Below are positions 3 through 47,637 of a stretch of DNA of 49,140 nt, one piece after another. This DNA comes from a virus. The translations under genes and the position numbers were made by a program. The stretch is from the IMG/VR virus record IMGVR_UViG_3300027734_000109, positions 1-49,140 of that record; one strand, written 5' to 3'. Within the stretch, counting starts at the first letter, position 1. Each line of letters opens with the position of its first letter. The notes under the pieces were generated by a model. It had not been told where the DNA came from and ran no database searches. It worked only from the letters and a program-made list of their open reading frames with translations.

Positions 3-746
3 CGCAAGCAGCACAATGAAGGACTAGAAAAACTAGAAGGCTTCATGGTGCATGCCCTGGCTCGTGAGATCCAAGAATTTGCTACAGATAAACGTGACGT
101 GGTGGAAACCAAAGTGCGTTTGGTGCGTGAAGCACGTGGCCAATTGGAGCGTCTCAAGACACGTTTCGTAAAAGAAAGTGCTGCAAAAATGAGTCAAGCT
201 GTTAGCCATCATCTCAAGGCTGAACTTACACAGTTACACGAAGATGTCAAAATTGCTCGCGAGAATAGTTTTGGTCGTCGTATTTTCGAAGCGTATGCTG
301 CTGAATTTGGTGCCACTCATCTCAATGAGAAAGCCGAAGTCCGCAAGTTGCAAAACATCATCGCTGCCAGAGAAAATCAACTGTCAGAAGCCATCAAACT
401 CGGCAGGAAAGCAAAAGTTCTTGTTGAGTCCAAGGAACGTGAAATACGAATCATCCGTGAATCCACTGTGCGTCAAACCACAATGGACGATCTGCTAAGT
501 CCTCTCAATGAGGAAAAGCGTGAAGTGATGCGTAATTTACTCGAAAGTGTGCAGACAAACCGTCTGAAGAACGCCTTCGAAAAGTATCTACCAGCAGTAT
601 TAGCTGAAGGCAAGTCTGTGAAAGCCCGCCAGGTGATCTCAGAAAATGTGTCAGAAGTCACTGGTAATAAAACTGCCCCTCGTCAAGACGAAGACAGTGT
701 TGACAACAGCAATGTGATCGCCATCAAGCGTCTGGCAGGGCTGTAA
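3..746 (+). CDS. gp22: Prohead core scaffold protein, gp22-like (5' partial)
   Basis: Likely the internal scaffold around which the capsid assembles, degraded by the prohead protease before packaging. The frame is open to the left window edge, so the protein starts upstream; the ATG at 45 is probably internal. The visible part is a charged, Lys/Glu/Arg-rich, largely helical chain with coiled-coil character, as expected of a T4 gp22-type core protein, and it ends in IKRLAGL, a C-terminus I associate with gp22 of T4-like marine phages. It lies immediately upstream of the capsid gene with a 22-base gap, the T4 order 22-23. Length and position fit; the identity is by family resemblance, not by a catalytic motif. 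Confidence 0.8.
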   Translation, partial: RKQHNEGLEKLEGFMVHALAREIQEFATDKRDVVETKVRLVREARGQLERLKTRFVKESAAKMSQAVSHHLKAELTQLHEDVKIARENSFGRRIFEAYAAEFGATHLNEKAEVRKLQNIIAARENQLSEAIKLGRKAKVLVESKEREIRIIRESTVRQTTMDDLLSPLNEEKREVMRNLLESVQTNRLKNAFEKYLPAVLAEGKSVKARQVISENVSEVTGNKTAPRQDEDSVDNSNVIAIKRLAGL

Positions 747-768: not shown

Positions 769-1980
769 ATGTCACAAACTCTATTAGAAGGTCGTTGGAA
801 TGAAACCAAAGACGCTCTTCTCGAAGGCCTGAAAGGCAACAAGCGTACAAGTATGAGCGTGATCCTCGAGAACACACGCAAGTATTTGAAAGAAAATGCA
901 AGCGGTGGTAGCACCGGTTCTGGCAACATCGCCACACTGAACCGTGTGATTCTGCCAGTGATCCGTCGTGTTATGCCAACCGTTATCGCTAACGAATTGG
1001 TCGGCGTTCAGCCAATGACTGGTCCAGTTGGTCAGATCCACACCCTGCGTGTGCGTTATGCCAACACAATGACTGACAACAGTGCTGCTCAAACCAGTAC
1101 CGCTGCTGGTCAAGAAGCATTGAGCCCATTCTTGATTGCTCAGGCATACTCTTCAGCATCAAGCGTTACCGCTGGTGTTGTTGATCCTACACAGAATATC
1201 TATTCTGGTGCTAACACAGCAGTGCTTGAAGGTTCCGGTGGTCGTCAGATCTCTGTGCAAATCTTGAAGCAAGCAGTTGAAGCCAAGACTCGTAAGTTGC
1301 AAGCACGTTGGACTTTTGAAGCGGCTCAAGACGCACAAGCAATGCATGGTATCGACGTTGAAGCCGAAATCATGGCTGCTCTGGCTCAAGAGATTACCGC
1401 TGAAATTGACCAGGAGATTCTCCTGAGCCTGCGTTCATTGGCAACCACTGAGTACACATACAACCAAGCTACCGTTTCTGGTACTGCTACATTCGTTGGT
1501 GACGAACACGCCGCTCTGGCTGTTCTGATCAACCGTGTTGCTAACCTGATTGCCCAACGTACACGTCGTGGCGCTGGTAACTACGCAGTTGTTTCTTCAG
1601 CAAGTTTGACCGTTCTGCAAAGTGCTACCACTTCTGCGTTCGCTCGTACTACAGAAGGTACTTTCGAAGCACCTACAAACACCAAGTTTGTTGGAACACT
1701 GAATGGCGCAATGCGTGTGTTCGTTGACAGTTATGCCAGCGATACCACTCCTGTGCTGGTTGGTTACAAAGGTAGTTCAGAAGCCGATGCTCCTGCTTTC
1801 TACTGCCCATACATTCCCCTGATGAGTTCAGGTGTTGTGTTGGATCCGACCACATTCGAACCAGTCGTGTCATTCATGACACGTTATGGTTTCATCGAAT
1901 TGACCAACACCGCAAGCAGCTTCGGCAATGCTGGCGACTATGTTGGCGAGATCGCTGTTTCCAACTTGTCTTTCTCCTAA
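769..1980 (+). CDS. gp23: Major capsid protein, gp23-like
   Basis: Forms the hexamers of the icosahedral head. The 403-residue product has the gp23 layout: a helical N-terminal propeptide, a Gly/Ser-rich linker, then the block beginning NRVILPVIRRVMPTVIANEL followed by the GVQPMTGPVGQIHTLRVRYA region typical of T4-like capsids. A Leu-Lys-Glu triplet at residues 40-42 precedes NASGG and matches the T4 prohead protease rule (L/I-x-E), so maturation probably removes about 42 residues. It is shorter than T4 gp23 (521 aa), as in many marine relatives. AAGGAGA at 757-763 is a strong ribosome binding site. No late box sits directly upstream, so it is probably read from the scaffold transcript. A terminator follows. 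Confidence 0.95.
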   Translation: MSQTLLEGRWNETKDALLEGLKGNKRTSMSVILENTRKYLKENASGGSTGSGNIATLNRVILPVIRRVMPTVIANELVGVQPMTGPVGQIHTLRVRYANTMTDNSAAQTSTAAGQEALSPFLIAQAYSSASSVTAGVVDPTQNIYSGANTAVLEGSGGRQISVQILKQAVEAKTRKLQARWTFEAAQDAQAMHGIDVEAEIMAALAQEITAEIDQEILLSLRSLATTEYTYNQATVSGTATFVGDEHAALAVLINRVANLIAQRTRRGAGNYAVVSSASLTVLQSATTSAFARTTEGTFEAPTNTKFVGTLNGAMRVFVDSYASDTTPVLVGYKGSSEADAPAFYCPYIPLMSSGVVLDPTTFEPVVSFMTRYGFIELTNTASSFGNAGDYVGEIAVSNLSFS

Positions 1981-34277: not shown

Positions 34278-34569
34278 CCTCTTCTACACAGTTTAGGCAC
34301 ACAGTTCTGAGATTTTTAAGATCCACATTGTTCATATTGCCGTCCATGTGATAAACTAGGATTTGGCTAGCAAACCTAGGCTTGAACCCGCATCGATCGC
34401 ATGCGGGTTTTTTCTTGTAACCTGCCCGTTTCCACAACGCTTCTGGCGGCTTGATTTTCTTTTTTCTCCGGATACAATGATCGCATCTGGTGCGATAGTG
34501 CGTGATGTCGTTTCGGCAATAATTTACTGCTACCGGACGTTGATTGCAGGCTGTGCATATGGGTCTCAT
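34225..34569 (-). CDS. Zinc-ribbon/HNH-like protein
   Basis: 114 residues from the ATG at 34569 (a longer frame exists, but the late box and the homology start, MRPICTACNQRP, select this one). It carries several Cys pairs: CTAC, CDHC, CDRC and C-x2-C in VCLNC, plus the segment YHMDGNMNNVDLKNLRTVCLNC, which has the His-Asn-Asn spacing of beta-beta-alpha-metal (HNH) nucleases. Similar small proteins are widespread in T4-like marine phages. It may be a nuclease or only a zinc-binding DNA-interacting protein. Its codons CDRCGF form, on the other strand, a terminator hairpin. It is expressed from a perfect late box 4 bases before the ATG. Confidence 0.7.
   Translation of the reverse strand: MRPICTACNQRPVAVNYCRNDITHYRTRCDHCIRRKKKIKPPEALWKRAGYKKKPACDRCGFKPRFASQILVYHMDGNMNNVDLKNLRTVCLNCVEEVRRLDVPWVPNPLQADR
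34385..34413 (+). terminator. Forward terminator embedded in the reverse-strand zinc gene
   Basis: A perfect 9-bp stem (34385-34393 with 34401-34409), 7-base loop, then six T residues (34408-34413). It would end the exonuclease-kinase transcript before the sheath gene. On the other strand the same bases encode Lys-Lys-Pro-Ala-Cys-Asp-Arg-Cys. Confidence 0.8.
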
Positions 34570-34573
34570 GGTG

Positions 34574-34581
34574 TATTTATA
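34574..34581 (-). promoter_or_regulatory. Perfect late promoter TATAAATA, reverse strand
   Basis: The canonical T4 late box on the minus strand, inside the palindrome GTGTATTTATACAC, four bases before the ATG at 34569. Transcription would start at about the start codon. Confidence 0.75.
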
Positions 34582-34631
34582 CACAAACCTTTGCAAAGGG
34601 CATCGCAACACCCCTGGTTTTGTAGGCATCC

Positions 34632-34639
34632 GATAAATA
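34632..34639 (+). promoter_or_regulatory. Late promoter box GATAAATA for the tail sheath
   Basis: Ends 26 bases before the sheath ATG; AAAGGAG at 34653-34659 is a strong ribosome binding site. It is divergent from the late box at 34574-34581. Confidence 0.75.
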
Positions 34640-34665
34640 TCTGTAACAGTTTTAAAGGAGCCAAA

Positions 34666-37600
34666 ATGGCAACATCATTCGTACCAGCAACACCATTAGT
34701 ATCACCTGGAGTTCAAGTCACCGTAATTGACGAGAGTCAATACTTACCGGCATCCACCAACAGCGTACCTTACTTTTTAATCTCCACAGCACAGAACAAA
34801 GTTTCTGGTAGCGGAGTTGGTGTAGCAGCAGGAACATTAGCAGTTAACGCCAACAGAGTGTATCTGATCACCAGTCAGCGTGATCTTGCCGCCACTTTTG
34901 GTAATCCGTTTTTCTACAAAACCACAATTGGCACTCCTATCAATGGCTATGAGTTGAACGAATATGGCTTGTTGGCAGCATACAGTGCATTGGGTGTAAC
35001 TAACCGTGCTTATGTACAACGTGTGGATATTGATCTTACCGAACTCACAGCCACTTTGGTCCGCCCCACCGGTGACCCTGCCAATGGCTCATACTGGTTA
35101 GACACTGTAAATACACAGTGGGGAATTTTTGAATGGAATCAAACTACCGGCGCATTTAGTCCAACCGTGCCGTCGGTGATCACTACCACTACTTCTCTGC
35201 AAAGTGGTGTACCACTGCAAGATTACGGTGCAATTGGTGACTACGCAGTAGTGGCCACCAATACAGCCAATCCTGTGTACTATAAAAATGGTGCAGTGAT
35301 AGCAGCCTCGGGCAATGCTACCACTCTCAGCGATTTGTACAACACTTGGGTACTGGTAGGTAGCGATGATTGGAAATTGAGTTACCCTGCGGTACAAGGT
35401 GCCAATGCAGTAACAACAACTCTTAGCGCAGGTAATACCATTGTGATCAATGGTACCAGTGTAGCAGTTCCTGCATCAACCAACAACACCATCCAAGGAC
35501 TCAGCGGTGCTATCAATACTGCTAATATCACTGGCGTCTATTCTGCTGTGATTGATAATAAATTGTGCTTGTTCGCTAACAGTGAAGCCACTGCCGACGG
35601 ATCAACAGCAGATGATGGTATTATCTATATCAATCCGGTGGGATCAACCTCGGGATTGCTGACCACACTGGGACTCACCTCTGGTGTTACATATTATGCA
35701 CCTGGACTACAACAAAGTCCTAACTATGTATTTCCTCGCTGGAGAACCACCGACGATACACCACGTCCTACAGGCAGCGTGTGGAACAAGACTACTGCAC
35801 AAAATCTTGGCACATTCATGTCTGTTCAGAAATACAACACTGCATTAGCACAGTGGGTACAACAAGCAGCCCCTGTTTATCAAAATGACTGGAATGCTAA
35901 TGCCAATCTAGATGCCACAGGCGGTGGTAAAAACATCATAGTTGGCGCAACTTATACACAATACAATGTGGATCCTGCTCCAAGCGGTATATCTGAATGG
36001 AGTAGTGTTACAACCTATGCAACCGGAGATCGAGTATTGTATGAAACACTAACATATGAGTCTCTACAGAATTCCAATCTGAATCAGAATCCTGTTACTG
36101 CGACTACGTATTGGTCAGAAGTTCAAAATGAACTGCCTTACAACAGCACCTACACTCTGCAGGTGTTTGAACGTACTTCACAAGGTTCCACAGTGGTCAC
36201 AGGCAGCACTAGTACCCCTGTAGTAACAAATGGCAATCAGTTTACTGTGACTACCAGCATAGCAAATTCAGGTAGTCTTACCAGCACAGTCACAGTCACA
36301 GTCAATGGCAATACCACCGCTGACTTTGTTACTGCTGTGTCATCTGCTGGTTTACCTTATGTGGTTGCCAGTGTAAACAGTTCTGGTGCAATTGTAATGA
36401 CACAAACTCAAGGCGGTGTGATTTTGTTACAAAACGTCACAGGAACACCTTTGGCTGATGCTGGATTTACTACCAGCACCACAGGTTGCAGAAACATTGT
36501 TGATGATAATTTGACTGCATATTTGCAACTCAGTGGCTGGATTCCATTGGTTTATACAGCCAGTGCCATAGCACCTAATCAAGATCCTGCCTCGGGCACA
36601 TATTGGTATTATTCCACTACCAATCAAGTTGATATCATGATCAACAATGGTTCAAGTTGGGTAGGTTATCAAAATGATTTTAACGATACTCGTGGTTTTG
36701 ATTTGAGCACAACCAACCCAACTGGTCCTATCATTGCTGTCACAGCACCTACTACACAGACTGATGGAACTCCATTGGTATATGGTGATTTGTGGGTTAA
36801 CACCAGCAATCTTGAACTGTATCCTTTGTTAAATCGTTGGCAAACAGTAGAGGGCGTGAATCAATGGGTATTGATTGATAACTCTGATCAACAAAGTTCA
36901 AATGGTATATTGTTTGCTGATGCTCGTTGGAGCAGCACAGGTCTAGTGAATCCTATAACTGATGCCTACCCTACCATAGTCAGTTTGCTTACAAGCAATT
37001 ATTTAGATGCCGATGCACCAGATCCTACACTGTACCCCGCAGGTATGCTGCTGTGGAATTCACGACGTTCAGGATTTAATGTCAAGCAATTTGAAGTTGA
37101 TTACTTCAATGCCGCATCGTTCTCTTATGCAACATGGAGTTCCTCTACCACTTATGCCGTGGGCGACCAGGTATTGTATAACACAGTATTGTATGTGGCC
37201 ATTCAAGGTAGCAATACCAATCAGAATCCAGCCACCCAGATTGCGTATTGGAGTCCGCTGGAAACTAACTCATGGGTCACAGCATCAGGAAATCGTGCCG
37301 ATGGATCCCCTAACATGGGAAGATTAGCTCAACGTGCATTGATTGTGGCAGCATTGAAATCTGGTATTGATACCAGCGTAACTGCTCGTGAAGAACAAGC
37401 ACAGTACAATCTTCTGGCATGTACTGCGTACCCCGAATTGATACCCAACATGGTTGCACTTAACGATGAGCGTAATAACACAGCATTTGTTGTGGGTGAC
37501 ACTCCAATGAGATTAGGACCCAATGGTAATGATATTGCATCCTGGGCCACAAACAACGGCGGGTTAGGAATATATGCCGGTGATGGGTTACAAAGCAATA

Positions 37601-38286
37601 GTCCTTATGCTGGCGTGTTCTACCCCAGTTGCCAAACCACAGATCTAGGTGGAAGCACAGTGGTCACAGCACCTAGCCATATGATGGTACGCACAATTAT
37701 CCGTAGCGATAGTGTGAGTTATCCTTGGTTAGCACCTGCTGGTACACGTCGAGGTGTGATTGATAATGCTGCTCAGATTGGGTACATCAACTCAACCACA
37801 GGTGAATTTGTTACCATCGGTAACAATCAAGGCCTGCGTGATGTTGAATACCTCAACTCTATCAACCCAATCACGTTTATTCCCGGAGTGGGTATTACCA
37901 ACTTTGGTAATAAGACATTGTACAATCAAGCAACAGCATTGAACCGCATCAATGTGGCACGTTTGATTGCATACATGCGTGGTAGATTGGAAGAGATCGG
38001 CAAGCAGTTCTTGTTTGAACCCAATGATCAGATCACACGCAATGAAATAACCAATTCTATAAATGCATTGTGTATCAATCTTGTGGCCAAACGCGGTATC
38101 TATGACTTTTTGGTAATTTGTGATACCAGCAATAACACACCGTTTACCATTGATAACAATGAGTTGATTGTTGATATTGCAATCGAACCAGTAAAATCAG
38201 TGGAATTTATCTATATTCCGCTGCGTATCAAATCCACTGGGGCGATTGCTAATTCACAGACTGCAACGCAAACTTCTATCCAATAA
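34666..38286 (+). CDS. gp18: Tail sheath protein, gp18-like, with large insertion
   Basis: 1206 residues, almost twice T4 gp18 (659). The N-terminus (PLVSPGVQVTVIDESQYLPA, then AFSALGVTNRAY-type AYSALGVTNRAYVQRVD) and the C-terminal 400 residues (WLAPAGTRRGVIDNAAQIGY, ALNRINVARLIAYMRGRLEE, VDIAIEPVKSVEFIYIPLRI) are classic contractile sheath. Between them lie about 600 residues of inserted beta modules. Two copies, about residues 442-486 and 819-865, read W-x4-TYA-x-GD-x-VLY-x4-Y-x9-NQNP-x6-YW, the pattern of CBM5/12 chitin-binding-type modules. Short Y-x-W-x-(N/D)-T units surround them. The start at 34666 is set by the strong ribosome binding site; an upstream extension of the frame is antisense to the zinc gene. 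A terminator follows. Confidence 0.93.
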   Translation: MATSFVPATPLVSPGVQVTVIDESQYLPASTNSVPYFLISTAQNKVSGSGVGVAAGTLAVNANRVYLITSQRDLAATFGNPFFYKTTIGTPINGYELNEYGLLAAYSALGVTNRAYVQRVDIDLTELTATLVRPTGDPANGSYWLDTVNTQWGIFEWNQTTGAFSPTVPSVITTTTSLQSGVPLQDYGAIGDYAVVATNTANPVYYKNGAVIAASGNATTLSDLYNTWVLVGSDDWKLSYPAVQGANAVTTTLSAGNTIVINGTSVAVPASTNNTIQGLSGAINTANITGVYSAVIDNKLCLFANSEATADGSTADDGIIYINPVGSTSGLLTTLGLTSGVTYYAPGLQQSPNYVFPRWRTTDDTPRPTGSVWNKTTAQNLGTFMSVQKYNTALAQWVQQAAPVYQNDWNANANLDATGGGKNIIVGATYTQYNVDPAPSGISEWSSVTTYATGDRVLYETLTYESLQNSNLNQNPVTATTYWSEVQNELPYNSTYTLQVFERTSQGSTVVTGSTSTPVVTNGNQFTVTTSIANSGSLTSTVTVTVNGNTTADFVTAVSSAGLPYVVASVNSSGAIVMTQTQGGVILLQNVTGTPLADAGFTTSTTGCRNIVDDNLTAYLQLSGWIPLVYTASAIAPNQDPASGTYWYYSTTNQVDIMINNGSSWVGYQNDFNDTRGFDLSTTNPTGPIIAVTAPTTQTDGTPLVYGDLWVNTSNLELYPLLNRWQTVEGVNQWVLIDNSDQQSSNGILFADARWSSTGLVNPITDAYPTIVSLLTSNYLDADAPDPTLYPAGMLLWNSRRSGFNVKQFEVDYFNAASFSYATWSSSTTYAVGDQVLYNTVLYVAIQGSNTNQNPATQIAYWSPLETNSWVTASGNRADGSPNMGRLAQRALIVAALKSGIDTSVTAREEQAQYNLLACTAYPELIPNMVALNDERNNTAFVVGDTPMRLGPNGNDIASWATNNGGLGIYAGDGLQSNSPYAGVFYPSCQTTDLGGSTVVTAPSHMMVRTIIRSDSVSYPWLAPAGTRRGVIDNAAQIGYINSTTGEFVTIGNNQGLRDVEYLNSINPITFIPGVGITNFGNKTLYNQATALNRINVARLIAYMRGRLEEIGKQFLFEPNDQITRNEITNSINALCINLVAKRGIYDFLVICDTSNNTPFTIDNNELIVDIAIEPVKSVEFIYIPLRIKSTGAIANSQTATQTSIQ

Positions 38287-40982: not shown

Positions 40983-41474
40983 ATGACCAAAAAACTCGAA
41001 GAGTTATTCGACTTACCGCCCTCTGGAGATCCTGAAGAGGAGCTGGTTTACACCCCCGAACAAACCCAGTCAGTGATGGCTGAGATTGACAATGCCATCG
41101 ACAAGATTGATGCTGCCCTGCCGGGTGTGCGTGACTTGTCGTCGTCAGATAGTGAGATGGATGAACTGGCCGATCTAGCCAAAGGCAGTTACAAGGATCT
41201 CATGGACTTGGGTATGAATGTGGATTCAAGATTTGCTGCTGAGATATTCAGTGTAGCAGGCGCCATGCTAGGGCATGCACTCACAGCCAAACAGGCCAAG
41301 ATGAGCAAGAAGTTGAAAATGATCGATTTGCAGTTAAAAAAAGCAAATCTGGATGCCAAACTCGCAGATTCAGATCGAGACCCACCACAGCAAGGCCAAG
41401 GCCATGTGTTGGATCGCAATGAATTGTTGGATAGATTGTTAGGCGATAGAAAGACAAATGCCAAAAAAGTATAA
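40983..41474 (+). CDS. gp16: Small terminase subunit, gp16-like
   Basis: 163 residues, acidic N-terminus (FDLPPSGDPEEELVYTPEQ), central helices (LADLAKGSYKDLMDLGMNVD, then EIFSVAGAMLGHALTAKQAKMSKKLKMIDLQLKKA) and a polar tail. The central region fits the oligomerisation coiled coil of T4 gp16 (164 aa), where helices of about this spacing form the recognition ring that presents DNA to gp17. The match is by length, architecture and neighbours (gp4 upstream, gp17 downstream after a 6-kb insertion), not by strong identity. Its last bases contain the late box of the next gene. Confidence 0.6.
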   Translation: MTKKLEELFDLPPSGDPEEELVYTPEQTQSVMAEIDNAIDKIDAALPGVRDLSSSDSEMDELADLAKGSYKDLMDLGMNVDSRFAAEIFSVAGAMLGHALTAKQAKMSKKLKMIDLQLKKANLDAKLADSDRDPPQQGQGHVLDRNELLDRLLGDRKTNAKKV

Positions 41475-41477
41475 ATA
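41470..41477 (+). promoter_or_regulatory. Perfect late promoter TATAAATA
   Basis: The canonical T4 late box overlaps the stop codon of the gp16-like gene, 17 bases before the ATG at 41495. Confidence 0.8.
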
Positions 41478-41494
41478 TCACATAGGACTCTGAT

Positions 41495-42103
41495 ATGAAA
41501 AAATTTCACCAATATCTTGCAGAAAGCGAACGCACATACGATTACAGGATCAAGATCCTGGGCGATGTGCCCCCAACCTTTATCAAGGATCTGGAACAAA
41601 AACTCGAACAGTTTGACATTGTCAAGATGTCAGGCAAAAAGACCACACCGGTGCAGCGACTATTAAAAGACTTCCCCAACGAAGAAAATGACATGGTTAC
41701 GTCAGTGGATGTGAGTTTCCGTTATCCGGCTATCGAACCACAGATACAACAACTGGCTCAACTGTTAGGGTTCAATCCCAACAGGATCCGACTGTTGACA
41801 CAACCATATGTAGACAGCATTGACAAAGAAATTTCTGACATCAACGCACAGAACAAGGACTTGATCGCTGATACCGATTATCCTGCACCTGATGCCGAAC
41901 AGCAGGCCTTGAAGAAAGATTACTCCGGTGATCCATACAAACATGCGGTATTACAAAATGCATATCGTTCAGATTTCACAGTAGCCGGTGGCAAAACACC
42001 TCCAGCAAAAACCACCAATGATATCAAGCAGGACACAAAGAGTCCAATGACTGATGTCAAACGCACGCCACGGCCTGCTACTTTCGCAACACCAAGAGGA
42101 TAA
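41495..42103 (+). CDS. Putative capsid-targeted head protein
   Basis: 202 residues. The N-terminus MKKFHQYLAE|S closely resembles the capsid targeting sequence of T4 internal proteins (MKTYQEFIAE|A), which is cut by the prohead protease after L/I-x-E. The next 110 residues form an alpha/beta domain (YDYRIKILGDVPPTFIKDLE, VTSVDVSFRYPAIEPQIQQL); the C-terminal 70 are disordered and Pro/Lys/Asp-rich. Similar proteins precede the large charged head protein in T4-like marine phages, so a head-internal or scaffold-associated role is likely. It heads a late transcript with a perfect TATAAATA and is followed after 3 bases by the 971-residue gene. Confidence 0.6.
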   Translation: MKKFHQYLAESERTYDYRIKILGDVPPTFIKDLEQKLEQFDIVKMSGKKTTPVQRLLKDFPNEENDMVTSVDVSFRYPAIEPQIQQLAQLLGFNPNRIRLLTQPYVDSIDKEISDINAQNKDLIADTDYPAPDAEQQALKKDYSGDPYKHAVLQNAYRSDFTVAGGKTPPAKTTNDIKQDTKSPMTDVKRTPRPATFATPRG

Positions 42104-42106
42104 ACC

Positions 42107-45022
42107 ATGAGCGATTATTTTTTCTATGACATGAACAAGAAGATGGCCGACTTGGCTAAAAAGCAGCAATTGGCTGAAGATGCCCAATCTGCTCCAGCCA
42201 AGCCTGCACCCAACCGGTTGATGGAAGCAGCCGCTGACTATTCAGCCAAGAAAGCCGCAGCCGGCAAAGACATCGGCAAGCCGGGCAAGAACTTCAGCAA
42301 GATCGCTGCTGGTGCTGCCAAGAAGTATGGCAGTGCAGAAGCAGGCAAGCGTGTGGCAGGTGCTGTGTTGAACAAACTGCGTCACCCTACAAAGGAAGGT
42401 GTCGAGCCTCCAAAACATTATGGTCCACCAGGACAAATTCCAAGTGTTGAAACAGCTAAATTTGATCGGTATATGCAAAAACGCTGGGCCGAGCACGAAG
42501 CAACAAGACCCGTACCGATAACGCCACCGGGTCTCCCAACCAAAGAAGGCGTGAATCAATCTCAACTCAAGCCTTACAAGTCCACAATGAAGGAAGGCGG
42601 CAAGCCAGACTTCTTGGATCTTGACAAAGACGGAAATCGCAAAGAGCCAATGAAATCTGCTGCTCGCAGTGCCAAGAAAGACATGGATGAAAGTGCATTA
42701 CAAGCTGCGTTTGGCAAAAAGAAATATGGTGATCAAGGTATGCAGGCATTACAAAAGGCCGGAAGAAACAATGCTAGTGATAGCACCATGAAAAAGATTC
42801 GCAACCAGTATGACAAGTATGATGAAAGCATAACGGATGAAGCACATGTTCGCCATCTAGATATAAGAGGTGACAGAGGCGGCGACGAAGCCGACGCAGA
42901 AGAATACAGCAATGAATTTCAATTATATAATCCTCGTATTTCTGACAAGAAACGCAATAGTGAGTTAACAACTAAAGGGTTTAGTCGAGCTCAAGATGTG
43001 GGCGATCGGTTAGGTGATGTAATGCGGCATAACAAAGAAAAATCTGCATATGGTAAGACCATGGGAGGACGCATCAAATCAGCATTAGGGCTAGACGAAG
43101 TTGATGCCACTCCACAACATGTGGATGATTGGACACCACCACCTAAGCCTGCACCCAAAGCCAGCGCACCTCGCCCACCTGTGGCACCTAAGCCTGCTCC
43201 AAAGAAGCCAGCCATGTATCCTCCACAGGCCATTGATGATCCGGTAAAAGAAGGTGGCGTGCCAATGACACCCAAGCAAAAGAAATTTGCTGCTTTGGCA
43301 AAACCTTTTGACAAGATCACTTTCGCTGACAAGATTGTTGGTGCCAAGAAAGAAGTGGACGAAATGTTAGGCGATGTAGCAGCCGATGCTATGAAGAAAG
43401 CAGTTGGCAGCAGAGGACAAAGCAGTTATCAACGCGGACAACAACAAGACGATGAGTTTGCAAGTGATCATTTTGCAAGGGCCCGTAATCAACGTCGTCA
43501 TGACGCAGAAGACGAATGGGCAAGAAGCAAAGGTCGCAAACCTCATGCTGACATGGACGAAAGTTTCCTAGACGACGAACCCACTAGCCGTAGGTCAAGC
43601 ACCGGTGGTAGAATTGATACCTCTGAACCAGGTGTCACACGCCATCGTGCAGTGAAAGGCAACTACAGCGGTGCAGGACACGACGCCGGTGCCGATGATG
43701 AGCCAAGTGGTGCTGTAGGCCGCCGTAAGGTTGGAGCAGGCATGGGCAAGAAGATTGGCGCTAAAATCAATCGAGGCACATCAAAACTCATGACCAAAGA
43801 AGGCGACATGCCCGAAGACATGATTGAGCCACAAGATTCAGGTGAATACGATCGCGAAGGCGAAATGGCCAAGGACGATATCAAGACTGTGGTGCGCCAT
43901 GCACAAGCCTTGGAAAAGATACTAGGTGACGAGGATAATCTGCCAGAATGGGTGCAATCCAAGCTGGCCAAGATCGAAGGCATGATGACTGCTGTGGATG
44001 ACTACATGCAGAATCAGAATGACGATGACAGCGGCGACGATATGGAAATGGACGAAGAGCGAACCAGCAAGCGTGATAACCGTGCCGAACGAGCCGGCCG
44101 CAAGGTAGCCAAAGATATCGAATACGATGAGAAGAGAAAAGACGGTATTCACGGTAAACGCCGTGGTAGCGAAGATGACAAAGCTGAACGAGCCGGTAAG
44201 AAAGTTACCAAGGACATTGAGTACGACGAGAAGAAAAAAGACAAGAAGAAAAAAGAAGTGGATGAAACTACAACTTCTGGATCAGTTGCTACTGGTGCTG
44301 CTGCACCCAAGTCTGGCGGCCATAGTTACGGCAAAGGTATCTACGACAGTCTAAATCGTCAGTTGGAAAACATGATCTCTGAGTCAATGAACATCAACAT
44401 GAGCATGAACAACGACGATCACGGCGGTCCGCGCCAAAGCCTTACAGTTACTGCCACAGATGAAGATGCTGTGATGTTGGCCGGCTTGCTGAAGATGGCT
44501 GGACTAGGGCATGGTGATGAACATATCCACGCCATGACTGGTGATGATTCTGACATGGATGCTTTGCACAATATCAATCACATGCACGGTGATGAGCCAT
44601 GCGAAGAATGTGGATCTACTGAATGCGAATGCGATGGCATGATGGAAAATATCGCAACCAATCCAGACGGAACTCCTTATGTAACCGACATTGACCCTGA
44701 TCAGCACGATGCAGAAACAGCAAGACTGGGACGAGCCGGCCAGGCTCCATCTTTTAGAACACCCGGTGCGGCATCTGCTGGCCAAGGTGGATATAATGAA
44801 ATAGAAGAAGCCTACGGCGACACTGATGCGTCTGAAAATGAACCAGATTGGCCCACAGACGAAGAAGGTACAGACGATGCCATGATGTACAGCGGTGGAT
44901 TGAATGGTCCAAAGTCAACTGGCCAAACTACTACTCCAATCATCGCACATCAAAATGACCGCATGGGATCAGACGGTGATCACGAACTGCGTCGCATGAT
45001 GGAAATTGCTGGACTTAGGTAA
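42107..45022 (+). CDS. Large charged low-complexity head protein (putative)
   Basis: 971 residues, mostly disordered, rich in Lys, Asp, Glu, Met and Gly. Landmarks: QQLAEDAQ and RLMEAAAD near the N-terminus (both fit L-x-E protease sites); repeated (T/V)KEG motifs; an EF-hand-like PDFLDLDKDGNRKEP at about 166-180; a conserved DIKTVVRHAQALEKILGD-to-LPEWVQSKLAKIEGMM helix pair near 600, known from head-region proteins of T4-like marine phages; a tandem repeat (ERAGRKVAKDIEYDEK / ERAGKKVTKDIEYDEK) near 665 and 695; LTVTATDEDAVMLAGLLKMA; and a Cys cluster CEECGSTECEC. It is probably an internal head or core protein processed during maturation; no enzyme domain is seen. Confidence 0.6.
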   Translation: MSDYFFYDMNKKMADLAKKQQLAEDAQSAPAKPAPNRLMEAAADYSAKKAAAGKDIGKPGKNFSKIAAGAAKKYGSAEAGKRVAGAVLNKLRHPTKEGVEPPKHYGPPGQIPSVETAKFDRYMQKRWAEHEATRPVPITPPGLPTKEGVNQSQLKPYKSTMKEGGKPDFLDLDKDGNRKEPMKSAARSAKKDMDESALQAAFGKKKYGDQGMQALQKAGRNNASDSTMKKIRNQYDKYDESITDEAHVRHLDIRGDRGGDEADAEEYSNEFQLYNPRISDKKRNSELTTKGFSRAQDVGDRLGDVMRHNKEKSAYGKTMGGRIKSALGLDEVDATPQHVDDWTPPPKPAPKASAPRPPVAPKPAPKKPAMYPPQAIDDPVKEGGVPMTPKQKKFAALAKPFDKITFADKIVGAKKEVDEMLGDVAADAMKKAVGSRGQSSYQRGQQQDDEFASDHFARARNQRRHDAEDEWARSKGRKPHADMDESFLDDEPTSRRSSTGGRIDTSEPGVTRHRAVKGNYSGAGHDAGADDEPSGAVGRRKVGAGMGKKIGAKINRGTSKLMTKEGDMPEDMIEPQDSGEYDREGEMAKDDIKTVVRHAQALEKILGDEDNLPEWVQSKLAKIEGMMTAVDDYMQNQNDDDSGDDMEMDEERTSKRDNRAERAGRKVAKDIEYDEKRKDGIHGKRRGSEDDKAERAGKKVTKDIEYDEKKKDKKKKEVDETTTSGSVATGAAAPKSGGHSYGKGIYDSLNRQLENMISESMNINMSMNNDDHGGPRQSLTVTATDEDAVMLAGLLKMAGLGHGDEHIHAMTGDDSDMDALHNINHMHGDEPCEECGSTECECDGMMENIATNPDGTPYVTDIDPDQHDAETARLGRAGQAPSFRTPGAASAGQGGYNEIEEAYGDTDASENEPDWPTDEEGTDDAMMYSGGLNGPKSTGQTTTPIIAHQNDRMGSDGDHELRRMMEIAGLR

Positions 45023-45026
45023 TCGT

Positions 45027-45206
45027 ATGACCAATCAATTTCAGACCTACGCAGAGACCATGGCACGGTTGTCGGAACGACATCCGCCCGCACCTACGCC
45101 ACAGGAAGTGCGGAATCAACCTGTGATGATCCCCGGTGTGCTGAGCCAGACCACAAATCTGTTCCGTCCCGTGGCAGTGGCAGATCTAAATAAGGATAAC
45201 AAATAA
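45027..45206 (+). CDS. Small hypothetical protein
   Basis: 59 residues from the ATG at 45027, five bases after the preceding stop; a longer frame would begin inside the 971-residue gene and is less likely. Sequence: a helical start (MTNQFQTYAETMARLSERHP) and a Pro-rich remainder (PAPTPQEVRNQPVMIPGVL). Its stop overlaps the start of the next gene (TAATG). Not recognised. The late box of the next gene lies within its last codons. Confidence 0.5.
   Translation: MTNQFQTYAETMARLSERHPPAPTPQEVRNQPVMIPGVLSQTTNLFRPVAVADLNKDNK
45186..45192 (+). promoter_or_regulatory. Late promoter box CTAAATA
   Basis: Ends 13 bases before the ATG at 45206; TAAGGATAAC overlaps it as the ribosome binding site. Confidence 0.55.
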
Positions 45207-45529
45207 TGGCTATTCAAGTAATCAAGGACACAGCCGGCAATGTGTTATGGACCACAGACAAAGCCCAGATCAATTCTGAAAGCAATAATGTGACCTATCA
45301 AGTCAATGTGCAACAACTGACTTACATACAGGCCAACGGTGTTCCTGCCAATGCTACCATGAGCACTGCCACTGGCAACTTGTATGCCAATGCAGTATCT
45401 GTGCCCAATGGAACCATCCAAGAAATTTATGTGGGCGCAGGCAACTATTTGATCTTAACAGGCACAAATTTTACAGCCGTCGCATTAGGCACAGCATCAT
45501 CCGCTAAAGCAGGCTCAAACGGCATCTAA
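45206..45529 (+). CDS. Small beta-rich virion protein (putative)
   Basis: 107 residues: AIQVIKDTAGNVLWTTDKAQ, VTYQVNVQQLTYIQANGVPA, ATGNLYANAVSVPNGTIQEI, ending in TASSAKAGSNGI. An all-beta, Asn/Thr/Gly-rich composition like the fibre proteins, no Cys. It has its own late promoter and good ribosome binding site, so it may be abundant; a head decoration or fibre-attachment protein is possible. Function not recognised. It is followed after one base by the 45531 gene. Confidence 0.6.
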   Translation: MAIQVIKDTAGNVLWTTDKAQINSESNNVTYQVNVQQLTYIQANGVPANATMSTATGNLYANAVSVPNGTIQEIYVGAGNYLILTGTNFTAVALGTASSAKAGSNGI

Positions 45530-45530
45530 C

Positions 45531-45905
45531 ATGCGAGCAAATGAGTTCATCTCTGAAGGACAAGCAGTAGGCCGACTCAGCAAAACAAAAAGTTTTGCCA
45601 CAGTAGGTCTACACAAATTTGTTGATCCTAATCGAGCCGATCGAGTGTATGAACTAAATCGTATCATGATGGCAGCAGCCAGCACCGATGGAACTTTTGT
45701 GCCTGACATAGATGGTGAATCCTGGGCCGGTCGCTACAACATTGCTGCACCTTACACTGAAGAAGAACACAACATGCTGAAAATGGCCTACAAAGCCATC
45801 GGGTCAGAAGTTGAGGATCTCAACCACGGTGATCTCCGCAGCCTAGAAATCCCCAGCACCAGCACAGTGAGTCCTGTAAAAGCATTCAAAGGTTATCCCC
45901 GATGA
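45531..45905 (+). CDS. Putative capsid-targeted internal protein, paralogue 1
   Basis: 124 residues. The N-terminus MRANEFISE|G has the layout of T4 internal-protein targeting peptides (basic residue, x, E-F-I-x-E, cut after Glu). The body (YELNRIMMAAASTDG, YTEEEHNMLKMAYKAIGSEV) is alpha-helical and acidic. The C-terminus SPVKAFKGYPR is nearly identical to that of the 46432 product, showing that the two are paralogues. It overlaps the next gene by ATGA. Suggested role: packed in the head and ejected with the DNA, or an assembly factor; the basis is the peptide and the cluster. Confidence 0.6.
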   Translation: MRANEFISEGQAVGRLSKTKSFATVGLHKFVDPNRADRVYELNRIMMAAASTDGTFVPDIDGESWAGRYNIAAPYTEEEHNMLKMAYKAIGSEVEDLNHGDLRSLEIPSTSTVSPVKAFKGYPR

Positions 45906-46435
45906 GAGCAAGAGAATTCATAAGAGAACAACTAGCACCTCTAGGCAAAGCGGCTGCTCCTTATGTTCTTCCTGCAATCCAGCAAGGTATCAAGCGGGTA
46001 TTACCTGCGATAGGTGGACTGGGTGCAGGATTGGGATTGGGCAAACTGGCATCTACTGATACTGCCACTGATAATCCTCCGAAAAAAAGTTTTAAACTAA
46101 TCCTTCAAGGAAAGTTTGGAAACAAGCCCGGAAATATGAACTCCGAAACTGTTTGGCATGCTTTGCCAGATGTATTTCCTCGAGACTATCCTAAAACAGA
46201 TTACGGTCATGAGATTCGTGTTCCTCAAGATCTCATAGTAGATCAGATTGGTCAAACAGGAAGTGCTGTGATTAAAAGTGGTATACCCAGCATGGACTTG
46301 GCAGAAACATACCGCCAAAAACTTTGTAGTTTGAATTACCCTGATCAGATAATACCCACCCGAACAACAGGTAAAATTCCTTTAGAATGTTGTCAAATTG
46401 AACAAGAACCTGTAAAAGAAGGAATTCGTCGATGA
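45902..46435 (+). CDS. Putative capsid-targeted internal protein with hydrophobic Gly-rich segment
   Basis: 177 residues. MRAREFIRE|Q is the targeting-type N-terminus. Residues 20-50 are hydrophobic and Gly-rich (VLPAIGGLGAGLGLGKLA), long enough to insert into or disturb a membrane. The remainder is a globular alpha/beta domain (FKLILQGKFGNKPGNMNSET, VFPRDYPKTDYGHEI, MDLAETYRQKLCSLNYPDQI) with three Cys, unrelated to anything I recognise. It ends in VKEGIRR, matching the KEG motifs of the 971-residue protein. ATGA overlaps on both sides keep it in a tight late operon. Confidence 0.6.
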   Translation: MRAREFIREQLAPLGKAAAPYVLPAIQQGIKRVLPAIGGLGAGLGLGKLASTDTATDNPPKKSFKLILQGKFGNKPGNMNSETVWHALPDVFPRDYPKTDYGHEIRVPQDLIVDQIGQTGSAVIKSGIPSMDLAETYRQKLCSLNYPDQIIPTRTTGKIPLECCQIEQEPVKEGIRR

Positions 46436-46824
46436 GAGCAAGAGAATTCATCACTGAACAAGCAGCGCACTTGCCAGCAGAAATAGCAGAGCCCTTGAGA
46501 TATACTTATGTGTTGCCTGGTGTGAATGGTAGCGATCCCTATGGCTCGTATAGATTGTCGGTGGCCATGGCTCGGGCTAGATCAGATGCTGGTCAGCAGG
46601 ACGGTGTGAATGATTTCATGATTCCGTGGACATCAGAAACTGCGTTTGGGGAACATGCTGTGATATCCGGTATGGATGAACAAGTGATACCTATCATTGA
46701 TCAAGCATTGAAAATGACCCAAACACCTGGAGGTAAGCAACTGGTATCAACAGCCAAGAGTCAAGAACCAGCGTTTGTGGACAAAACAAGTCCGGTAAAA
46801 GCCTTCCGGGGCTATCCAAGGTAA
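46432..46824 (+). CDS. Putative capsid-targeted internal protein, paralogue 2
   Basis: 130 residues. The N-terminus MRAREFITE|Q differs from its neighbour's by one residue in the first nine. Body: YTYVLPGVNGSDPYGSYRLS, AMARARSDAGQ, AFGEHAVISGMDEQVIPIID and KQLVSTAKSQEPAF, then the C-terminus SPVKAFRGYPR shared with paralogue 1. The family of small proteins with this start and end seems common in T4-like aquatic phages, function unknown. It overlaps the preceding gene by ATGA and is followed after 3 bases by the endonuclease. Confidence 0.6.
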   Translation: MRAREFITEQAAHLPAEIAEPLRYTYVLPGVNGSDPYGSYRLSVAMARARSDAGQQDGVNDFMIPWTSETAFGEHAVISGMDEQVIPIIDQALKMTQTPGGKQLVSTAKSQEPAFVDKTSPVKAFRGYPR

Positions 46825-46827
46825 CCT

Positions 46828-47637
46828 ATGAAAAAACTTTTAGCAATCTATTTAATCTTTCTCGCGGCCACAGCAAATGCCTGGACACAACGACCACCAC
46901 AGGACATCAGAACCTGTGCTGTGCATGCTCCTTATGGACTGCCTGCCACCATAGCCACACAATCAATCTGTAGACAAGCATATCTTGTGGGTTACGATGT
47001 GGCAGCTAAGATACCCAGATATGTCACATACACATTGATACCACGAAACGCATTAGGTTGCGTGGCAAGAACCAATGCGTTCGCTAGTGATCAATCGATA
47101 CCCAGTGGTGCCACACCTGAAGACTATGCCGGCACCGGCTACGACAAAGGCCACATGAGCCCAGACGGTGACCTATCATGGGATCCGCAGGTGGAGTTTG
47201 AATCATTCCTCATGACCAACATGGCACCACAAGCAGGCAGTTTAAATCGTGGCATCTGGAAATTACTGGAAACAAGTATCCGTGGATGGGCGGTGCAGCA
47301 CAACAACAGTTTCACCATCTATGTGGGTGCCATATACAATGCACAAGATCGACGCATCGGCTCGGGAGTAGTGGTGCCACATGCATTCTACAAGATCGTG
47401 ATCAACAATCAGACCAACGAGATCGCAGGCTGGATGTTTCCACATGTGCCACCCTACCCAAATCTGGGCAATGACTTGACCCGTTTCCGTGTGCCAGTGG
47501 ACTTGATTGAACAAGAATCCAGAGTAAACTATGCGTTTCCGCCCACAGCAAAAGAACTCAACCCTGGACAGGAATGGACAGTAGACTTTGGCGATCTGAC
47601 CCGAGTCAAAAGAGCCAAATGTGGCCGATCCGAATAA
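46828..47637 (+). CDS. Exported DNA/RNA non-specific endonuclease (NUC1/NucA family)
   Basis: 269 residues with a clear signal peptide (MKKLLAIYLIFLAATANA, probable cut after ANA, residue 18). The mature part has the beta-beta-alpha-metal nuclease signature YDKGHMSPDGD (a DRGHM variant with Lys), the downstream Asn-containing MTNMAPQAGSLNRGIWKLLE, and VYVGAIY-type core strands (FTIYVGAIYNAQDRRIGSG). All expected catalytic residues (His of GHM, Asn of TNMAP, Glu of the WKLLE helix) are present. It probably degrades DNA and RNA in the periplasm or outside the cell, for nutrient release or exclusion. It is odd as an exported enzyme between internal-protein genes and the terminase. Confidence 0.85.
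   Translation: MKKLLAIYLIFLAATANAWTQRPPQDIRTCAVHAPYGLPATIATQSICRQAYLVGYDVAAKIPRYVTYTLIPRNALGCVARTNAFASDQSIPSGATPEDYAGTGYDKGHMSPDGDLSWDPQVEFESFLMTNMAPQAGSLNRGIWKLLETSIRGWAVQHNNSFTIYVGAIYNAQDRRIGSGVVVPHAFYKIVINNQTNEIAGWMFPHVPPYPNLGNDLTRFRVPVDLIEQESRVNYAFPPTAKELNPGQEWTVDFGDLTRVKRAKCGRSE

Follow-up and report, generated by a model that had tools for sequence, protein, structure and literature searches.

A short N-terminal leader, probably a capsid-targeting propeptide, on unrelated proteins of uncultured giant phages

Four of the 43 genes on a fragment from an IMG/VR virus record (IMGVR_UViG_3300027734_000109, positions 1 to 49,140, hereafter the window) begin with similar peptides of nine or ten residues, and the question raised by this locus is what such a common start is for. 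The genes are named here by their first nucleotide, 41495, 45531, 45902 and 46432. From a comparison with related phages we consider it likely that this common start is a capsid-targeting propeptide, lineage-specific and modular, that would work like the capsid targeting sequence (CTS) of T4. In T4, internal proteins with no other resemblance begin with the CTS, a short peptide that directs them into the prohead core; gp21 then removes it, and the proteins are later injected together with the DNA (PMC12373910, PMC3012670, PMC5694885); the T4 internal proteins IP1-3 all inhibit type IV restriction enzymes (PMC12373910). The concept is already known from T-even phages, and the form described here, MRAxEFIxE, is a variant of it; among the papers searched, none mentions both a capsid targeting sequence and metagenomic data.

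Four similar starts and their reuse on other bodies

All four open reading frames and their starts were found where a preliminary description of this DNA had placed them. Gene 41495 has the N-terminus MKKFHQYLAESER with the leader MKKFHQYLAE, and genes 45531, 45902 and 46432 begin MRANEFISEGQ, MRAREFIREQL and MRAREFITEQA and are joined, as had been claimed, by ATGA overlaps at both junctions. The single formula offered for all four leaders holds for the three MRA genes and not for 41495, which is longer by one residue. The spacing of the latter equals that of T4 IPII and IPIII (MKTYQEFIAE), and the MRA leaders, one residue shorter, agree with the T4 peptides in the initial Met, a basic second residue and the EFIxE core. 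A strict motif scan of the six frames of the window returned MRA starts at 45531, 45902 and 46432 only. When the N-termini were shuffled 200 times, 0.2 matches were obtained on average and never more than 2, compared to the four among the 43 genes.

The tagged set in relatives was collected with a DNA pattern for MRAxEFIxE, which matched at least 120 contigs across IMG/VR compared to 23 for a scrambled pattern of equal composition, while the reversed pattern had no match in the 43 records that were searched again. Among the matches listed, 162 non-identical tagged proteins fell into 34 body clusters, a figure that includes a few singletons which may be chance matches; the unrelated bodies number about 30, and 98 of the 162 proteins belong to the family of 45531 and 46432. 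Relatives thus do carry the same start on different bodies, which was one of the checks proposed for this locus. In an alignment of 51 representative tagged proteins only M1, E5, F6 and E9 are invariant, with R2, A3 and I7 present in at least 90%. The group is also recovered without a preset motif, since a de novo comparison of all N-termini of each genome gave the leader group as the largest cluster in G003 (352 kb) and G032 (259 kb), which have eight tagged genes each, and in the cultured Alishewanella phage Slicko01. A given body can, moreover, change its leader: a kinase-like body (PLPxDWD...) follows MRANEFIFE in contig L078, MKQVRLSQFLSE in Xanthomonas phage XacN1 and MKIYNLYSTLLE in Slicko01.

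The 46432 family, searched in IMG/VR with the body without its leader, allowed the persistence of the leader to be followed. In the best 80 of 471 contigs, 132 copies carry the strict leader and 33 others do not; 30 of these 33 have a GTG or TTG start, begin MRARDF or MRASDF, or differ by a single change, for example MRAREFMVE, and the true exceptions are L290/L291 and L312, the latter with MRAREFVSAKITE. The leader codons vary in this family while the residues persist. At L290:4999 and L291:2126 the leader is exchanged in frame for a signal-peptide-like N-terminus, MKKLLLTLLLVPAMALA. Taken together, the comparisons support the view that the leader is reused as a module and that its sequence is specific to a lineage.

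What the leaders carry

Pfam searches with the 51 representatives returned GH19 lysozyme/chitinase, GNAT acetyltransferases, ParB_N, the polyvalent-protein domains Kinase-PolyVal and LPD22, and an ADP-ribosyltransferase exoenzyme domain (ADPrib_exo_Tox, 9.5e-13); PHROGs added endolysin matches, and peptidase-like bodies are also among the tagged proteins. T4 Alt is an ADP-ribosyltransferase that is packaged in the virion and injected, and tagged ADP-ribosyltransferases are likewise present in relatives (L107 and Slicko01), whereas no window protein is such an enzyme, with neither Pfam nor PHROG giving a match to the domain. The leader proteins of the window (124-202 residues) have no recognised Pfam or PHROG domain and no multidomain effector architecture.

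In Slicko01 (L368, L366:16481-16972) the leader MKIDxLYESLLEE opens 11 genes between 56.5 and 97.6 kb, a count that includes the loose match at 74169 (MNFSDLYEDQQ), which may be a chance member. The bodies behind it include an ART-PolyVal domain (2.1e-11), four mutually homologous proteins and a homologue of Acb1 (1.7e-30), which acts against the cyclic-oligonucleotide-based antiphage signalling system (CBASS); the Acb1 domain starts at residue 15, directly behind the leader, and T4 Acb1 (57B) is without a leader extension of this type. Such tagged enzymes of effector type agree with published arguments for the packaging of enzymes of this kind by phages (PMC9503650, PMC5512222). To the phage polyvalent proteins treated in PMC5512222, some tagged proteins of relatives are similar in being multidomain (GNAT, kinase-like, ADP-ribosyltransferase, ParB) and in having PolyVal-type Pfam domains. 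The window proteins differ in being short and single-domain, and the passages on polyvalent proteins consulted in that paper do not mention a shared N-terminal tag.

Two further observations concern the cargo. Synechococcus phage DSL-LC02 (L316:2925-3245) has a gene with the T4-spaced start MKSFNQFLSE near the terminase small subunit and a DUF6321-type polyprotein. The tagged proteins L196:4466-6091 and L038:2643-4067 have repeated QGVAEG-type linkers between their domains, which are possibly extra head-protease sites that would split a polyprotein; the internal enrichment of QGVAEG, 2.4 compared to 0.5 per 10,000 residues, stems mostly from two proteins and is a lead only.

A proposed capsid address and its alternatives

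Among the matches listed, 13 of the 15 tagged contigs above 100 kb carry the gene for a gp21-type protease (PF03420), which lies directly upstream of a gp23-type capsid gene, and PF03420 also occurs in three phages with leaders of this kind, namely XacN1, Slicko01 and a cyanophage. The capsid protein of the window is of the gp23 type and has 64-66% identity to its counterparts in the giant phages PA5oct, Phosso and Vibrio 2.275.O. The capsid proteins of relatives keep an L-x-E before a NASAG, SSAG or SATAG stretch, at the place of FLTE|AEIGG in T4, and the leaders end in I/V/L-x-E. The preference of the protease, as read from this independent substrate, therefore agrees with the I-x-E of the tag.

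We propose that the leader would dock a new protein on the scaffold core during prohead formation, that the gp21-type protease would cut behind the final Glu of (I/L/V)-x-E, as the capsid match suggests, and that the mature body would remain in the head with the DNA and be delivered at infection. New bodies would be acquired behind the tag, with 45902 between 45531 and 46432 as a putative example. T4 IPI-IPIII are alike in having an M(K/R)..EFIxE peptide before unrelated bodies, in the (I/L)-x-E end, in belonging to a phage with gp21 and gp23 and in being genes that swap in and out. Here, in contrast, three window leaders are one residue shorter and start MRA instead of MKTY, two window bodies are acidic, conserved paralogues, and the tag is found in uncultured gp23-type giant phages with a far wider cargo, known from sequence alone. 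The long propeptides of SPN3US/phiKZ-type head proteins (PMC5694885) are similar in being cut from ejection proteins by a prohead protease and differ in their length of about 80-160 residues and in having no common short motif.

Several observations weigh against this proposal. The 49-kb fragment contains no gp21-type protease gene; it should be noted that it starts downstream of the position expected for one. A search of T4 and ten giant-phage isolates, 11 in all, did not find the MRAxEFIxE tag. The mature isoelectric points (pI) of 41495, 45531 and 46432 are 5.6-6.3, so that these proteins are not basic, compared to 9.6 for T4 IPII and IPIII, and the PA5oct and Phosso homologues of 41495 are without the Glu cut site (L-x-E). 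Finally, tagged genes write Arg codon 2 as AGA or CGA in 169 of 181 cases, whereas these codons account for 38% of the internal Arg-Ala pairs in the same contigs and for 26 of 52 other genes starting with MR. This bias indicates that the start, ATG[AC]GAGC, is constrained as nucleic acid too, which a purely peptide signal does not account for.

The explanation that competes best retains the capsid address and differs in its purpose. The tag would bring proteins to the prohead core, where they would be cut and would stay or leave as structural parts, like T4 gp67 and gp68 or the fragments of gp22, with no role in the next host. We regard this as quite possible, and as the likelier account for the pair 45531/46432 and for 41495: the pair occurs in conserved tandem order near the terminase in at least 471 contigs, 41495 is conserved and has a PA5oct homologue that is a virion protein, and neither the bodies of the pair nor that of 41495 match a known effector. 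However, ADP-ribosyltransferases, GH19 lysozymes and GNATs also follow this tag, and both Acb1 and an ADP-ribosyltransferase stand behind the Slicko01 leader; such enzymes are implausible as scaffold.

Any short conserved N-terminal tag on varied cargo has the look of a localisation signal, and an uncut tag could in principle send proteins to a replication compartment, a membrane or a complex in the infected cell. We consider such another address unlikely, since the match to the core of the T4 CTS (EFI-x-E) is close, the P3 and P1 residues are of the protease type, the tag is associated with gp21/gp23 phages and the window genes lie inside the head and packaging module. Still less probable is that the start region is a translation or recombination element with the peptide as its by-product. 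The codon-2 bias and the 24 of 27 bases shared by the leaders of 45902 and 46432 would fit such an element, but the other leader codons vary freely at synonymous sites, GTG and TTG starts and I/L/V changes occur, and R2, A3, E5, F6 and E9 persist. Agreement through whole-gene duplication only, which does apply to 45531 and 46432 and thereby to the family that makes up most of the tagged proteins, is very improbable for the set, since the body clusters, the unrelated body of 45902, the variants that keep the leader and the switching of leaders on one body rule out whole-protein conservation as the full explanation; the corresponding refutation foreseen in the preliminary description thus fails.

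Genes of the window and the meaning of the leader

The bodies of the four genes are not all unrelated. That of 45902 is unrelated to the pair, but those of 45531 and 46432 prove homologous when the leaders are left out of a profile alignment (hhalign probability 99.6, E 8e-25) and have the C-terminus SPVKAF(K/R)GYPR in common, so that the window has three body types and not four. Because the pair is widespread, tandem and conserved, it is probably a standard component of the head interior and not a variable weapon. An AlphaFold model of 46432 (predicted local distance difference test, pLDDT, 76; predicted template modelling score, pTM, 0.46) had one structural relative, from an uncultured phage, and no relative in the PDB. 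A search of GTDB genomes did not recover the 46432 body family, and 46432 and 45902 had no match in phage isolates. In relatives, other genes with an MKxxxxY(L/I)xE start and differing bodies lie upstream of the pair (L014:4832, L015:907, L020:92).

Gene 45902 is missing at the same place in close relatives and found in others (Table 1), which points to a recent insertion that arrived with a leader or landed behind one. It is rare and basic (mature pI 9.0), and the stretch that had been described as membrane-active-looking, VLPAIGGLGAGLGLGKLAS, near its N-terminus showed no more than mild hydrophobicity (a Kyte-Doolittle mean of 1.28 over the best 19 residues). It is the sole window gene with the profile of an exchangeable effector and a candidate effector.

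Gene 41495 looks more like a standard head-interior protein and probably encodes a conserved component of the virion behind its T4-style leader. Its PA5oct homologue EST35_0202 is annotated 'structural protein, ESI-MS/MS', from virion mass spectrometry, and since this homologue has no cut site, the body appears to be virion-associated with or without a cleavable leader. The AlphaFold model (pLDDT 63) suggests a ferredoxin-like fold, which gives no function because it is common to many unrelated proteins. The PA5oct counterpart by position of the adjacent gene 42107, EST35_0203, is likewise a virion protein found by mass spectrometry, and 42107 is possibly a further head-interior protein; it is of low complexity and has the C-terminus LRRMMEIAGLR. 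Late promoters were rejected as support, as TAAATA stands upstream of about 30% of other genes compared to 12% of tagged genes and does not discriminate. Of what had been proposed for this locus, the reusable T4-like peptide finds support, and the set of injected effectors does not as stated: the four proteins are not a set of unrelated effectors, since the pair are paralogues, 41495 is conserved and 45902 alone fits a variable effector; the term injected effector may suit the wider tagged set and perhaps 45902.

Table 1. Coordinates of leader genes, leaders and other features in the window
Feature	Position	Strand	Basis or remark
Coiled protein in scaffold gp22 position, between off-window protease and capsid gene; truncated by window edge	3..746	+	synteny with Vibrio phage 2.275.O and 121Q
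gp23-type major capsid protein; likely protease site after Glu42 (YLKE|NASGG)	769..1980	+	phrog_138, E 1.4e-98; site kept in relatives
T4 late-promoter-like TATAAATA, 17 nt upstream of 41495	41470..41477	+	weak; TAAATA kept in relatives
Gene 41495, T4-spaced leader MKKFHQYLAE|S, ferredoxin-like body (bab-bab)	41495..42103	+	conserved in relatives
Leader codons 1-10 of 41495, MKKFHQYLAE	41495..41524	+	
Acidic protein, 971 residues, repeated T/V/M-K-E-G motifs, between 41495 and the leader trio	42107..45022	+	PA5oct counterpart EST35_0203
Leader gene A, 124 residues, paralogue of 46432	45531..45905	+	leader and profile alignment
Leader MRANEFISE of 45531	45531-45557	+	
Leader codon 2 (45531, 45902, 46432)	45534-45536, 45905-45907, 46435-46437	+	
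Stretch containing conserved C-terminal motif SPVKAFKGYPR of 45531	45863..45902	+	
Leader gene 45902 with its own body, 177 residues	45902..46435	+	absent L001-L005; present L019/L220, L221
Leader MRAREFIRE of 45902	45902-45928	+	
Leader gene B, 130 residues; family in at least 471 IMG/VR contigs	46432..46824	+	leader and body search
Leader MRAREFITE of 46432	46432-46458	+	
Conserved C-terminal motif SPVKAFRGYPR of 46432	46789..46821	+	

The tagged genes are flanked on one side by a tail tube gene (38371) and a gp4-type head closure gene (40535), and on the other by a secreted-type non-specific nuclease (46828) and the terminase (47658). The nuclease (46828-47637) belongs to the non-specific DNA/RNA endonucleases (Endonuclease_NS, 3.6e-41) and begins like a signal peptide, and G003 has a protein with a similar start near the equivalent place. 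The tail-sheath open reading frame is listed as 34363-38286 with a TTG start about 110 codons ahead of the first sheath-like residues; its true start is probably further in.

Beyond the window, we tentatively suggest an open cargo system in many gp21-bearing phages, uncultured giants above all, in which each lineage would have its own short leader (MRAxEFIxE, MKIDxLYESLLEE, MKxxxLSQFLSE) and bodies would be exchanged behind it. Long cargo would be made as polyproteins with repeated protease sites such as QGVAEG that are cut in the prohead, so that one gene could deliver several effectors, including Acb1 and ADP-ribosyltransferases. The proteins that phages carry into their hosts are mostly unknown beyond a few model phages, and a lineage-specific N-terminal address would allow candidate injected proteins to be listed from sequence, even for uncultured phages. 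The tag stands on likely host-takeover or anti-defence enzymes, namely ADP-ribosyltransferases, Acb1, GNATs and lysozymes, and about 20 tagged body families without known function thereby become candidates for injected counter-defence proteins.
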